Under the pieces are notes generated by a model. The model saw nothing but the letters and a program-made list of their open reading frames with translations. It did not search any database and was not told where the DNA came from. The translations under genes and the position numbers were made by a program. A DNA stretch of 64,000 nucleotides from Eggerthia catenaformis OT 569 = DSM 20559 (GTDB lineage: Bacteria > Bacillota_I > Bacilli_A > Erysipelotrichales > Coprobacillaceae), in NCBI RefSeq assembly GCF_000340375.1, contig NZ_KB446647.1, forward strand, positions 322,166 through 386,165, given 5' to 3'. Positions 9,101 through 14,951 of this stretch are shown in pieces (the first letter of the stretch is position 1; each line of letters opens with the position of its first letter).

Positions 9101-10876
9101 TCAAGATTCTTCTTGATGAAGAATTTTAAAAAGACTGATAGATACCTTTTCAGGTAATATTTCCTGAAGTTCTTCTAATGATGCTTCTCGCATCTTTTTA
9201 ACACTCTTAAATCGATTTAATAGCTTTTTCTTTCTTTTTTCACCAATACCTTCTACATCATCTAAAATACTCGCAAATAATGATTTAGAACGTACATTTC
9301 TATGAAAACTGATAGCATAGCGATGAACCTCATCCTGCATTCTTGTCAGTAGGAAAAATAACTGACTTTTTGGGTTAATAGGTATTTGTTTGCCTTCTCG
9401 ATCTAACAGCATAGCAGTTGAATGCTTATCATCTTTTGCTAAACCACAGACTTTAACCGGAACTTTTAATGCATCAATAACATCACAAGCCGCATGAATC
9501 TGTCCCATCCCACCATCAACAATAATCATATCAGCTATTTCTCTTTTTTCAGAAAGCTGACGGTAATAGCGACGATAAATAACTTCACGCATACTAGCAT
9601 AATCATCAGGACCTTCTACCGTTTTTATTTTAAATTTACGATAATCTTTTTTTGATGCAATCCCATCTTTAAACACTACCATGCCGGCAACCGCATAGGC
9701 TCCCTGAATATTAGAATTATCATATAATTCAATAATATGAGGAGTATCAATATGAAGCAGTTTTCCTAATTCTTTAATCGCTTTTACTGTTTTTTCCTCT
9801 TGTGCCTGCTTCAGAAGAAATTTCTTTTCTAAAGCTTCTTTAGCATTTTTTATTGCCATATCTACAAGCGTCTTTTTTTCGCCTTTTTGTGGTTTTAGTA
9901 TTTTAATATTAATAACCTCTCTTAATAAGTGATCATCTACATCTTTAGGAATAAGCAGCTCTTTAGGTAATGCATTATCCTGATAATAAAATACTAAAAA
10001 TTGTATCAGATCTTCCTGATAATCATCAGAAACAGGAACCAAATTAAATTCATGTGATAAAAGATGCCCATCTCTCATAAAAAAGAGCTGTACAGAAAGA
10101 TATCCTTTATCGATATAATAACCAAAGATATCCCTATCAATACGATCCTTTAAATCTATTGTCTGCTTACTTGTGACATATTTAATAGATTGAATCAGAT
10201 CCCTATATTCTTTAGCAAGCTCATAATTTAATGCATTGCTGGCCTCTGTCATCTTATCTGTTAATTCTTCTATTTTATCTTTAACGTCACCCTTCATAAA
10301 TCTGATAATATCTTTTTTGATCTGACTATATGTTTCTTCACTAACATCATTAATACAAGGTGCCAGACACTGATTTAAAGTATAATAAAGGCAAGGTTTA
10401 TTAGGAATGTGTCTACACTTTCTTAATGGAAATAGTCGTTCCAAAAGCTTATAGGCAGTTCTGGCTGCCGTTGCATCAGGGAAAGGACCAAAATAAGTGT
10501 TCTTTTTTAATTTAGCTTTTCTGACAATTGTAAGTTTAGGATGTCTTTCATCACTCAATTCAATATAAGGATAATAAGTGCTATCCATAAACATAATATT
10601 ATATTCCGGCTGATAATCTTTAATTAAATTAATTTCTAATAAGAGTGCTTCCTTTTCACTATTCGCAACAATATAATCAAAATCCCAGATATTATCTACC
10701 AGTTTTTGAGTCTTATAATTATGAGCACCCGTAAAGTAAGAAGAAACACGATTTTTTAGCTTACGTGCTTTACCAACATAAATAATCTTTCCTTGACTAT
10801 TCTTCATAAGGTAACATCCAGGTGAAAGAGGCAATAAAGCTAATTTCTTCTTAATATACTTAAGATTTTTATTCAA
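9101..10876 (-). CDS. uvrC: UvrC, excinuclease ABC subunit C
   Basis: Makes both incisions in nucleotide excision repair with UvrAB. The domain order is normal for 591 residues: GIY-YIG nuclease (GKIIYVGKARKLKNRV), Cys-containing middle region, UVR motif (about 200-235), RNase H-like nuclease with Asp in ELYDNSN, Asp in VDGGMGQI and His in HRYAISFHR, and C-terminal tandem HhH. The start codon is TTG, located inside the last codons of mutS2 and overlapping it by eight bases; no clear ribosome site is seen, suggesting translational coupling. Confidence 0.96.
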   Translation of the reverse strand: MNKNLKYIKKKLALLPLSPGCYLMKNSQGKIIYVGKARKLKNRVSSYFTGAHNYKTQKLVDNIWDFDYIVANSEKEALLLEINLIKDYQPEYNIMFMDSTYYPYIELSDERHPKLTIVRKAKLKKNTYFGPFPDATAARTAYKLLERLFPLRKCRHIPNKPCLYYTLNQCLAPCINDVSEETYSQIKKDIIRFMKGDVKDKIEELTDKMTEASNALNYELAKEYRDLIQSIKYVTSKQTIDLKDRIDRDIFGYYIDKGYLSVQLFFMRDGHLLSHEFNLVPVSDDYQEDLIQFLVFYYQDNALPKELLIPKDVDDHLLREVINIKILKPQKGEKKTLVDMAIKNAKEALEKKFLLKQAQEEKTVKAIKELGKLLHIDTPHIIELYDNSNIQGAYAVAGMVVFKDGIASKKDYRKFKIKTVEGPDDYASMREVIYRRYYRQLSEKREIADMIIVDGGMGQIHAACDVIDALKVPVKVCGLAKDDKHSTAMLLDREGKQIPINPKSQLFFLLTRMQDEVHRYAISFHRNVRSKSLFASILDDVEGIGEKRKKKLLNRFKSVKKMREASLEELQEILPEKVSISLFKILHQEES

Positions 10877-13166
10877 AATAAACTAAAGTAGCACCTAATC
10901 CACCTTCATTAGGTCCACCATCACAATAATTTTTAATCATTTTATTCTTATCCAGCATCTTTCTTATCCCATTTCTTAAAGCTCCTGTTCCCATACCGTG
11001 AATAATACGTACACTGGGATATCCTTCAACAAGAGCATTATCTAAAAATTTATCAACAGTTTCCATAGCTTCATCATAGCGTTTTCCAATAACATTAATC
11101 TCATAGTAGCTTTCTTTCTTAATAGTTCTTTTATTAATAGTTACTGGTTTATTCACTTTTTGTTTTTCATGAAGAAATGTAACCTCATTATCCTTTAGCT
11201 TTAAAGATAGTCCACCAATACCTACAAGAATCTTATGATTCTTAAGTACTTCAATAATATCGCCTTCTCTGTTCATAGCATTCACTTTGATATGATCTCC
11301 CGGCTTTAAAATATGAGTCTGAGGAGGCATTTCTTTTTTGTCTTCAATAAATAAGCTATCTAAAGATCTTTTAGCATTTGTAAGATGATGATCTTTTACC
11401 TCTTTATGTTTTTTTAATTCATCAATAATCAATTCAGCTTCATGCTTTGTTTTTTCAACAAGTTTATTTGCATGATCCTGTGCCTGCTTAATAATGTTTT
11501 CTTTTTGTTTTTCAAGCTTATCTACTTTTTGTTGATAAAGTACCCTTAATTCTTTTTGTTTAGACAATTCATTCTCTAACGCTTTTTGCTTCTGATCTAA
11601 TTCTTCTTTTTGCTTTTCTAATTTTTCTAATAGTTTCTCAGCAGCATTCAATGAAGATTTCTTGTATAAATAAGCCTGCTCAATAATATCATTATCTAAA
11701 CCTAATGTATTAGCTATTTCAAAAGCATATGAACTACCGATACTATTTAATGACAGCTTATAAGTTGGCTTCATTGTTTCTAAATCAAAACCGACACTGG
11801 CAAGGATTACATCTTCTCTTGCTTTTCCATAATTTTTCAATGTTCCATAATGTGTACTGGCAATAACACTACATCCTCTTGCTAAGAGAACATCAAGTAC
11901 AGCTGAAGCCAAGGAAGCTCCTTCAACAGGATCTGTACCGGAACCTATTTCATCAATTAATATCAATGAAGAAGCAGAAGCATGAGAAAGAAAATAAATC
12001 ATATTTTTCATATGTGAAGAGTATGTAGAAAGTGATTCCTCAATAGACTGTCCATCACCAATATCAGCATAAATACAATCATAAAAATAAACTGATGCAC
12101 TTACTGAAGGAACAGGTATTCCTGATAAAGCCATATATGAGAGAAGTCCTGCTGTTTTTAAAGTAACAGTTTTACCGCCAGTATTACTACCTGTAATCAT
12201 CATCATTTTCTTAGTCAGAACAATATCATTACTGACAGCTTTCTTTTGATCCAATAGAGGATGTCTAGCTTCTTTTAAAATAAGCTCTTTTCGATTAGAA
12301 ATTTCCGGAATACATGAATGGTAAGCATTACCAAATGCCGCTAAAGAAAAATAATAATCCAATTCAGTTATCAATTTCTGATCATAACGTAATAGAACAG
12401 ATCTCTTTTTTATCTCTAAAGACAGAAACTTCAAAATCTTTTGAATTTCTTCAAATTCAGCATTTTTTAACTCATTAAGTTCATTATTTAATAATACAGA
12501 CTGCTGAGGCTCAATATAGAGTGTTGCTCCGGAAGCTGAACCGGCATGAACTATGCCTTGAAAATCACCTTTATGTGAAGTTTTCACAGCCAGTACAAGA
12601 CGATTATTTCTAATTATCAGATTATCCAGAGATAAAGCATCCTTATTCTTATTAAGATAGCTTTCCATTGTTTTTCTGATACGAGTAGTTATGTTTAAGA
12701 TAGATTTTCTGATATGGTAAAGTTCATTTGTGGCATGATCATCAATCATCATATCAGAAGTAATACATCTTTCTATTTCAGAAATAAGATAATCATCACC
12801 ATTAAGACCTTCAATTTCATCTCTTAAATAATAAAATGTTTTTTCGTAGTTGGAAAAATACTTTTTTAAAGTCTGAGTATTTTTTAATAATATATAAATC
12901 TTTCTTATTTCTTCAATCGACAGAATTCCTTCCATTTCAGATTTTTTTAATATAGAGTCGTTACTTTCTAAAGATTGCAAAGGTAAATGTCCTAAAATAT
13001 TATGAATAGACATTGCCTCTCCTGTTTTTTTAAGGTTATCCTGTAACTCTAGTTTATCTTTATATAAATCTAATGTCAGTATTCTTTCTTTAGCCTGCTG
13101 TGTTTTACTAAAAGCAGCAATTTTATTTAAGATAATATGAAACTCTAAAATATATTTTGTATCCAT
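10869..13166 (-). CDS. mutS2: MutS2 ATPase/endonuclease
   Basis: MutS2-family protein. Members act in suppression of homologous recombination and rescue of collided ribosomes rather than classical mismatch repair. The N-terminal mismatch domain is absent. Clamp and lever regions precede Walker A ITGSNTGGKT (near residue 325), signature ESLSTYSSHM and Walker B LILIDEIGSGTDP. A long coiled coil (about 520-620) leads to the C-terminal Smr nuclease domain with IHGMGTGALR. The 765-residue length is normal. It overlaps uvrC and follows cvpA by three bases; mutS2 next to cvpA and rnhC is conserved in Bacillus. Confidence 0.95.
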   Translation of the reverse strand: MDTKYILEFHIILNKIAAFSKTQQAKERILTLDLYKDKLELQDNLKKTGEAMSIHNILGHLPLQSLESNDSILKKSEMEGILSIEEIRKIYILLKNTQTLKKYFSNYEKTFYYLRDEIEGLNGDDYLISEIERCITSDMMIDDHATNELYHIRKSILNITTRIRKTMESYLNKNKDALSLDNLIIRNNRLVLAVKTSHKGDFQGIVHAGSASGATLYIEPQQSVLLNNELNELKNAEFEEIQKILKFLSLEIKKRSVLLRYDQKLITELDYYFSLAAFGNAYHSCIPEISNRKELILKEARHPLLDQKKAVSNDIVLTKKMMMITGSNTGGKTVTLKTAGLLSYMALSGIPVPSVSASVYFYDCIYADIGDGQSIEESLSTYSSHMKNMIYFLSHASASSLILIDEIGSGTDPVEGASLASAVLDVLLARGCSVIASTHYGTLKNYGKAREDVILASVGFDLETMKPTYKLSLNSIGSSYAFEIANTLGLDNDIIEQAYLYKKSSLNAAEKLLEKLEKQKEELDQKQKALENELSKQKELRVLYQQKVDKLEKQKENIIKQAQDHANKLVEKTKHEAELIIDELKKHKEVKDHHLTNAKRSLDSLFIEDKKEMPPQTHILKPGDHIKVNAMNREGDIIEVLKNHKILVGIGGLSLKLKDNEVTFLHEKQKVNKPVTINKRTIKKESYYEINVIGKRYDEAMETVDKFLDNALVEGYPSVRIIHGMGTGALRNGIRKMLDKNKMIKNYCDGGPNEGGLGATLVYFE

Positions 13167-13169
13167 AAA

Positions 13170-13952
13170 TTACTCGCCTATATGATTTAAAATATCTGTT
13201 TGTTCCGGAGAACTAAGCTTAGTTTTTTTAATAATCTTTGAAATGACCGTTTTATCTTCTTTAGATAATTGCGGATTATAGCGTAATATATCTTCACTTA
13301 ATTGCTTTTCTAAAAACTGAGTTGCTTTTTCTTCTGAAATAAGACCGTTTTTATAAGCATAAAGATAAACATGTAGAAGTTCTTCTAACACTTTCTTATC
13401 AGAGATATGCTGAAATTTTTGTGTATCTGATGATATTGGAAGCTTTTTAATAGAGACACTATTCACAATAGTGTAAGCAATCGGATTTTTAGCAAGTTTC
13501 TTTTGACTTTCCGGTATAAATGGAAGAAAAATAAGAACTAAGACAATGTAGATAATAACTAAGGACTGAACTGCACTTAAAATCATGCCTAAAAAATGAT
13601 TTATTGTCTTAGTTATATGAAATTTATCATTTAAACTTGTTAACATTGGCTTTAATGCTAATCCAATCACAATCCGTAAAATAAACAGAATAATAAAAAC
13701 AATAATGAAAATAGCTGTACTGTTAAAGACCGGTCCTACAACACTGGAAATTAAATCATTGTTGTAGGTATAAATTGTGATTAGGTTAGATAAGGGCTTG
13801 TAAATCATCATTGTAAATATTAGAATAAATATGAGGCTGGCGAGATTATAAAATAAAGCAATAAATCCGTCTTTAAAGCCTTTAATTAACATAACTATAA
13901 AGTAAATAAGAATAAGAATATCGATAAAATAATTTTGTACTATTGTTTCCAC
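13170..13952 (-). CDS. cvpA: CvpA-family membrane protein
   Basis: Inner-membrane protein of the CvpA (colicin V production) family with four or five membrane segments and a charged C-terminal tail. The frame is open far upstream, but the region before VINVETIVQNYF looks like non-coding antisense of the divergent gene. I place the start at GTG 13952 with GGTG six bases upstream; GTG 13961 is the alternative. It lies directly before mutS2, as in Bacillus (yshB-yshC-mutSB region). The molecular role of the family is poorly understood. Confidence 0.8.
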   Translation of the reverse strand: METIVQNYFIDILILIYFIVMLIKGFKDGFIALFYNLASLIFILIFTMMIYKPLSNLITIYTYNNDLISSVVGPVFNSTAIFIIVFIILFILRIVIGLALKPMLTSLNDKFHITKTINHFLGMILSAVQSLVIIYIVLVLIFLPFIPESQKKLAKNPIAYTIVNSVSIKKLPISSDTQKFQHISDKKVLEELLHVYLYAYKNGLISEEKATQFLEKQLSEDILRYNPQLSKEDKTVISKIIKKTKLSSPEQTDILNHIGE

Positions 13953-14039
13953 ATTAATCACCAAAAAAAGTATAACATCAATAAAATATACTGTCAAAAA
14001 ATGCGTTCTTGTGGTAAAATAGTAAGCGAGGTGAATATT

Positions 14040-14951
14040 GTGGAACCAATAATATTTAATATTACAAAAAATACACTTGAAAAAATGAATAAATTTTATG
14101 ATAGCCAAATGGTTCCATTCGATGAGACTGATATACTTCTTCAGGCGAAAACAATCAATTGTGAGATTACTGTCACAAAAGATATGAAGGCAAGATTTAA
14201 TGGTCAGAATGCTATTCATGAAGCTATTCACTGGAATAAAACATTAGCTAAAAAAATGCAGGCAGCTATTAAATCAAATGAAATTTATACATATCATCAT
14301 ATTGGAGCTGCTGAAACAGGATCAACTGATTTCATTGGTCCTTTATGCGTTGTTGCCTGCTATATTAATGAAGAAGGCATTGATTTTGTGGAAAATCTCC
14401 ATATTGAAGATATTGAATCACTAAGTACAGAAGAAATTATAGATTATGCTAAAACGATTAAGTCACATGTTATTAGTTCTCTTCTTATTTTGGATAACAG
14501 TCATTATAATGATATGATTAATAAAGGTTTTAATCAGGCAAATATCAGAGCTCGGCTTTTTAATCAGGCACTGGTTAATGTTCTTCAGAAGGCAAAGAAA
14601 AGCGTTGAATTAAAAGTTGTTGAGAAATATATTTCCCCTAAGACCTACTTTAATTATTTAAAAAGTGAAGTTATTGTTGTAAAGGATCTGCAATTTGAAA
14701 AAGAAGCTAAATCACAGTATATGGCAGTTTTAGCGGCTGAGATTATCTCTCGTTATGCCTATATTCAATATTTTACCAGTATGTCTAAAAGCCTTAAGTT
14801 CTCTTTGCTAAGAGGTACCGGCGCTAATGTAGATAATATAGTTGTTGAGATTGCAAAAAAATATGGACCAAAAATACTTACTAAAGTGGTCAAAATAAAC
14901 TTCAGTGATATGAAAAAAGTTAATAATATACTAAATAAAGAGTCTTTATAA
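14040..14951 (+). CDS. RNase HIII-like protein lacking catalytic residues
   Basis: The full RNase HIII architecture is present: N-terminal TBP-like substrate-binding domain (residues 1-75) and an RNase H fold. Active enzymes have GSDEVGTGD, DSK, IDQF and TKAE(S/G). Here these read GAAETGSTD (residues 89-97), DIE, VEKY and EKEAKS, so the first catalytic Asp is Ala and the others are changed. The surrounding fold motifs (FNQALV, PKTYFNYL, AVLAAEIISRYAY) are well kept. The start is GTG at 14040, preceded by GCGAGGTG; upstream codons lack a ribosome site. The locus (divergent from cvpA-mutS2) matches rnhC of Bacillus. I infer a pseudoenzyme. Confidence 0.78.
   Translation: MEPIIFNITKNTLEKMNKFYDSQMVPFDETDILLQAKTINCEITVTKDMKARFNGQNAIHEAIHWNKTLAKKMQAAIKSNEIYTYHHIGAAETGSTDFIGPLCVVACYINEEGIDFVENLHIEDIESLSTEEIIDYAKTIKSHVISSLLILDNSHYNDMINKGFNQANIRARLFNQALVNVLQKAKKSVELKVVEKYISPKTYFNYLKSEVIVVKDLQFEKEAKSQYMAVLAAEIISRYAYIQYFTSMSKSLKFSLLRGTGANVDNIVVEIAKKYGPKILTKVVKINFSDMKKVNNILNKESL

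Follow-up and report, generated by a model that had tools for sequence, protein, structure and literature searches.

RNase HIII carries the catalytic set DEDE (PMC9719913; PMC4132731). A D to N exchange at the first Asp inactivates Ta-RNase H3 (PMC4132731), the D107N variant of Tm-RNase H2, equivalent to D202N, is without enzymatic activity (PMC3025331), and characterised enzymes with a substituted N-domain Tyr or Gln54 are less active and bind their substrate less tightly (PMC4132731). The RNase HI/HIII pair has served as a published test case for the mutual exclusion of redundant genes (PMC1950709). According to Model A of Kochiwa (2007), an RNase HI equipped with a hybrid-binding domain makes RNase HIII redundant, and in that study all 31 species possessing this kind of RNase HI lacked RNase HIII (PMC1950709). 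An RNase H relative devoid of activity that exists beside other RNases H is known from B. subtilis as an inactive RNase HI homologue (PMC1950709), and pseudoenzymes in general have lost a catalytic motif, kept their fold and stayed under purifying selection (PMC5106787, PMC10211241). The RNase HIII described here resembles both, with the difference that in B. subtilis the type 1 enzyme is inactive and HIII active, whereas in the host family of our gene HIII is dismantled and RNase HI intact. Full-text literature searches returned no described pseudo-RNase HIII.

The window, a stretch of 64,000 nucleotides from Eggerthia catenaformis, contains an rnhC gene whose reading frame runs uninterrupted from GTG 14040 to a stop at 14951 (Table 1); the GTG start is backed by relatives beginning with M/V-EPI. 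The protein matches Pfam RNase_HII (4.7e-20) and, narrowly, DUF3378 (27.3 bits, cut-off 27), and it was aligned to Bst-RNase HIII (2d0a) at an E-value of 1e-29 as well as with MAFFT. Its match to the rnhC profile TIGR00716 (E-value 2.5e-42) reaches 145 bits and lies under the cut-off of 161.2 bits. An AlphaFold2 model had a pLDDT of 93, and Foldseek placed Bst-RNase HIII (3asm/2d0a) as its best PDB matches (E-value 9e-28). The genes uvrC, mutS2 and cvpA lie divergent from rnhC in 33 of 33 host-family loci (in one of them uvrC falls past the contig end), and mutS2 and uvrC are arranged in the same way at the HIII locus of the sister family. The gene is thus an orthologue of RNase HIII rather than a stray paralogue, since sequence, fold and neighbours across the family agree, and the first-pass annotation was right to place an intact gene at the conserved rnhC locus. 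A paralogous or horizontally acquired copy is ruled out by synteny and by the tree, and a phage origin found no PHROGs match. Elsewhere in the window, at 5-1434, two neighbouring ORFs resemble an IS3-type transposase pair, as read from their translations.

Table 1. Features of the rnhC locus in the window (residue numbers refer to the 303-residue product).
Feature	Position	Strand	Remarks and basis
mutS2	10869..13166	-	Syntenic neighbour; marks the ancestral rnhC locus
cvpA-like gene	13170..13931	-	Divergent from rnhC; start approximate
GAGGTG, ribosome-binding-site-like	14028..14033	+	6 bases 5' of the GTG start; direct sequence reading
Putative pseudo-RNase HIII gene, rnhC orthologue	14040..14951	+	303 aa, GTG start; ORF, profile and fold evidence
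N-terminal TBP-like (DUF3378) domain, residues 1-66	14040..14237	+	Pfam, alignment
Motif 1, residues 90-97, AAETGSTD for SDEVGTGD	14307..14330	+	Ala91 for the catalytic Asp; Glu92 retained; Thr96 for the second Gly of GxG
Residues 124-126, DIE for the DSK loop motif	14409..14417	+	Alignment
Residue 195, Glu for the third catalytic Asp (Bst D202)	14622..14624	+	Asn in most of the family
Residues 199-216 (SPKTYFNYLKSEVIVVKD)	14634..14687	+	Near-invariant across the family, variable in active sister-family HIII; candidate interaction surface
Residue 224, Lys for the fourth catalytic Glu (Bst E232)	14709..14711	+	Alignment
Residue 234, Glu for the conserved Ser of the AASIIAR helix	14739..14741	+	Fixed in the main branch lacking the first Asp

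Domain order, fold and the mutS2-adjacent orthologous locus are those of the characterised enzymes (Bst-RNase HIII, 2d0a/3asm; Ta-RNase H3, 4py5), but the window protein departs from both: three of the four carboxylates are missing, as are GxG, DSK and the N-domain contacts, and the block at residues 199-216 is a gain. In the alignment, Bst D97, E98, D202 and E232 correspond to A91, E92, E195 and K224, so that the DEDE set is replaced at three positions (D97 to A, D202 to E and E232 to K in Bst numbering) and only E98 is retained. GST stands in place of the GxG motif, which functions in 2'-OH recognition, and DIE in place of DSK. The acidic residue that follows GxG survives, Ta E84 being D97 of the window protein. 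The claim of the first-pass annotation that all four active-site motifs are changed therefore stands as a comparison of motifs, with the correction that one catalytic residue, E92, and the acidic D97 are still in place. From these residues we infer that the window protein is catalytically inactive.

The same state extends across the host family, for which we examined 43 genomes of gut bacteria, its named members including Sharpea, Kandleria, Massilimicrobiota, Longibaculum, Stoquefichus, Beduini, Thomasclavelia and Faecalibacillus. An rnhC gene is present in 41 of them, spanning 19 genera; it is missing from G001, with a completeness of 69%, and from G028, with 96% in 320 contigs. None of the 41 copies has the DEDE set. 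Among the 35 genomes tallied first, the sets were AENE (10), DENE (10), AEDD (3), AEED (2), AEND (2) and, once each, AEEK, AENQ, SENE, AENS, AEEQ, DDEY, DETE and DENY; six further genomes added one AENE and five DENE. The dismantled site is thus shared by the relatives, as the first-pass annotation had asked, with varying residues; a local sequencing or annotation artefact is ruled out by the occurrence of the trait in 41 genomes. In the sister family, all 22 of the 22 HIII sequences recovered are DEDE (that of G046 was read in two pieces). The nearest HIII outside the family in a sample of 344 genomes of the phylum, 15 of 15 inspected (L209-L223), are DEDE too, the best match being 34% identical. 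The substitutions are not a matter of chance, because they fall on positions that are invariant in active relatives and recur throughout the family.

The host-family HIII form one clade in the tree (support 100/100), within which the closest named relative of the window protein is that of Sharpea (67% identity). Two branches can be told apart. In the Thomasclavelia/Faecalibacillus branch the DUF3378 N-domain is absent and the other carboxylates are mostly retained, and in the branch of the window genome the N-domain is kept, the first Asp, GxG and DSK are lost, and position 234 is Glu. The third carboxylate (D202) was probably the first to go, as it is missing in nearly all members of both. 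Three members (AEDD) keep D202 and several keep D97, and residual activity in some branches is for that reason formally possible. Five genomes (G011, G033, G023, G029 and G036; L039-L043), all of one genus (g12, which includes Faecalibacillus), carry a second HIII-like copy that is shorter, more degenerate and without N-domain; these copies read YEDE, DDHY and CDHE, and in G011 and G023 the distance to the main copy is about 28 kb.

A nuclease that is still active through a rearranged metal site, in which Glu92, Glu or Asp at 195 and the newly acquired Glu234 stand in for the lost carboxylates, could account for the near-invariance of E92, for the fixation of Ser to Glu at 234 in the main branch where the first Asp is gone, and for the three acidic positions held by the AEDD members. 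However, positions 195 (N/E/D) and 224 (E/D/K/Q/S) vary freely within this branch, as would not be expected of catalytic residues, both DSK and GxG have disappeared too, and the two early-branching members are without Glu234. We consider such a nuclease improbable; the Glu at 234 is possibly a structural compensation.

Loss of catalytic residues together with one interrupted frame (G034) might also be expected of a pseudogene caught before frameshifts accumulate. Yet the frame is of intact length in 40 of 41 genomes across the 19 genera, and many columns, including those of the new block, are invariant. Pairwise dN/dS of the main HIII copy within the family ranges from 0.02 to 0.12, as compared with 0.11 and 0.16 for two active sister-family pairs, and the gene is therefore not decaying. 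Judged by these substitution ratios, the HIII protein is under strong purifying selection across the host family. Decay is ruled out at the family level by dN/dS and conservation, and we give it hardly any credence. Lost catalytic residues and purifying selection (dN/dS, presence in 41 of 43 genomes) are what marks a pseudoenzyme, and the proposal of the first-pass annotation that the protein is non-catalytic but retained gains strong support from the 0 of 41 DEDE sets and the low dN/dS.

That proposal had gone one step further and pictured an RNA-DNA hybrid-binding protein; such a protein would bind hybrids or R-loops without cutting them and would shield them or mark them for other enzymes. 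The fold, the N-domain (in the source branch), Gly55, Asp97, the pocket Gln166 and Phe288 are indeed kept, the Thomasclavelia/Faecalibacillus branch retains D97, E98, most of GxG and the DSK Lys alongside D202 to N, and the equivalent RNase H2 D107N still binds its substrate in crystals (PMC3025331). However, the contacts of the N-domain are replaced in the window protein (position 46 Tyr to Thr, 54 Gln to Asn), and across the family the Tyr (position 46, Ta Tyr43) is kept in 7% and Gln54 in 0% of the aligned rows, two residues whose mutants lose affinity. The pocket His, the second Gly of GxG and the DSK Ser and Lys are also gone in the window protein and most relatives. GxG and DSK as motifs are missing from the source branch, the N-domain is missing from the other, and the hybrid-binding region of the N-domain is among the largest drops in conservation. 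What the annotation said of a retained N-domain and core thus holds for the DUF3378 fold but not for its hybrid contacts, and hybrid binding as such is unsupported by the residues; we regard it as unlikely, though less so than a rearranged nuclease. Weak or altered nucleic-acid binding by the window protein is possible.

A different picture emerged from the positions that remain constrained. The two groups compared, host family and sister family, are unequally divergent (61% and 46% mean identity), so conservation was compared by ranks only. On that scale the largest gain of the whole protein is found in the block at residues 199-216, SPKTYFNYLKNEVIVVKD, which is nearly invariant in both branches, including the one without N-domain. 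This block holds 11 of the 36 positions that are conserved in the family and variable in the sister family (permutation p 2e-4), and a further seven of the 36 fall within residues 15-24 (p 0.005), where the N-domain bears the family-specific motif K15..K18.YDSQM24. The largest drops lie at about residues 37-59, the hybrid surface of the N-domain, and from 221 onward, at the catalytic Glu and its helix. Positions conserved to at least 90% in the active sister family and lost in the window branch include three N-domain residues (Tyr46, Lys50 and Gln54), two of the DSK motif (Ser and Lys), the second Gly of GxG and three catalytic carboxylates (D, D and E); known functional positions are enriched among those lost (Fisher p 0.04, a modest test on a hand-made list of positions). 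The new invariant block suggests a scaffold that was repurposed.

The remaining RNases H of the host family point to what may have permitted this change. Besides an RNase HII whose site is intact, the source genome encodes an RNase HI that carries a Cauli_VI hybrid-binding domain and has kept D-E-D-D, which answers the question of the first-pass annotation whether another RNase H is present. RNase HI was found in every tested host-family genome of at least 80% completeness, with DEDD intact wherever inspected and the Cauli_VI domain present where scanned, and RNase HII in nearly every adequately complete genome, with intact sites where inspected. In the sister-family genomes no RNase HI was matched by PF00075, a profile that missed the RNase HI of G009, recovered by a protein query; one of them (G047) gave a partial Cauli_VI match. 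Another sister-family genome (G056, 99% complete) had no match to RNase HI, HII or HIII. We consider it likely that hybrid cleavage passed to RNase HI and that HIII was thereby freed from its catalytic role.

A survey of 247 genomes of the class places this pattern in a wider context. Several lineages with the hybrid-binding domain are without HIII (for example, G062, G074, G149, G184, G199, G262 and G270), and the pattern of Model A is seen in the host family versus the sister family and in several genomes of families f5 and f21. Five genomes (G066, G088, G116, G175 and G256) carry both an RNase HI with the hybrid-binding domain and an intact HIII, which rules out strict exclusivity and reduces it to a tendency. 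Unrelated dismantled HIII occur in G217 (L169, SDEE), beside an E. coli-like RNase HI, and in G223 (L177, NMDT), beside a hybrid-binding domain. These two, each from a different family elsewhere in the class, are independent repeats of HIII dismantling, and the idea that the trait is confined to the host family without parallels is in part ruled out by them. The RNase HI gene adjoins a pepT-like peptidase gene, named from its translation, in both the source genome and the unrelated G217 (L033 and L184), the two RNases HI being of different types. In family f7, G064 (L164/L182) and G075 (C88) have two adjacent RNase HIII genes in tandem; the gene read from the G064 pair is DEDE.

Taken together, we think it fairly probable that the RNase HIII of the host family has turned into a pseudoenzyme, a scaffold that no longer catalyses but binds a partner by means of a new surface. 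In such a course of events, the RNase HI with hybrid-binding domain would take over the removal of RNA from hybrids, and the third Asp would be the first to be lost (D202 to N or E). The Thomasclavelia/Faecalibacillus branch would then lose the N-domain and mostly keep the other carboxylates, and the branch of the source genome would later shed the first Asp and GxG/DSK while keeping the N-domain. The RNase H-fold scaffold would bind its partner, most likely a protein, via the surface at 199-216, joined by residues 15-24 in the branch that bears the N-domain, and it would not grip RNA-DNA hybrids in the standard way. The complete account, that HIII was rebuilt after its replacement by RNase HI, that the conserved 199-216 surface binds one specific partner, and that the function was changed and the gene kept, is plausible but held more tentatively. 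The partner could possibly be a replication or R-loop factor, or RNase HI itself.

Some practical consequences follow for the reading of genomes. Going by E-value, some family proteins (for example, that of G025) seem to exceed the cut-off for 'ribonuclease HIII', and they risk being labelled active enzymes. Intermediate states (DENE, AENE, AEND, AEEK) are still visible in the family, and the order of loss is therefore both readable and testable. The pattern of the host family fits Model A (PMC1950709), except that the broken HIII stays as a selected protein: it is the activity that appears to be excluded, the protein itself being kept across 19 genera. If this is true, enzymatic redundancy would here have been resolved by changing the function of a gene and not by losing it.
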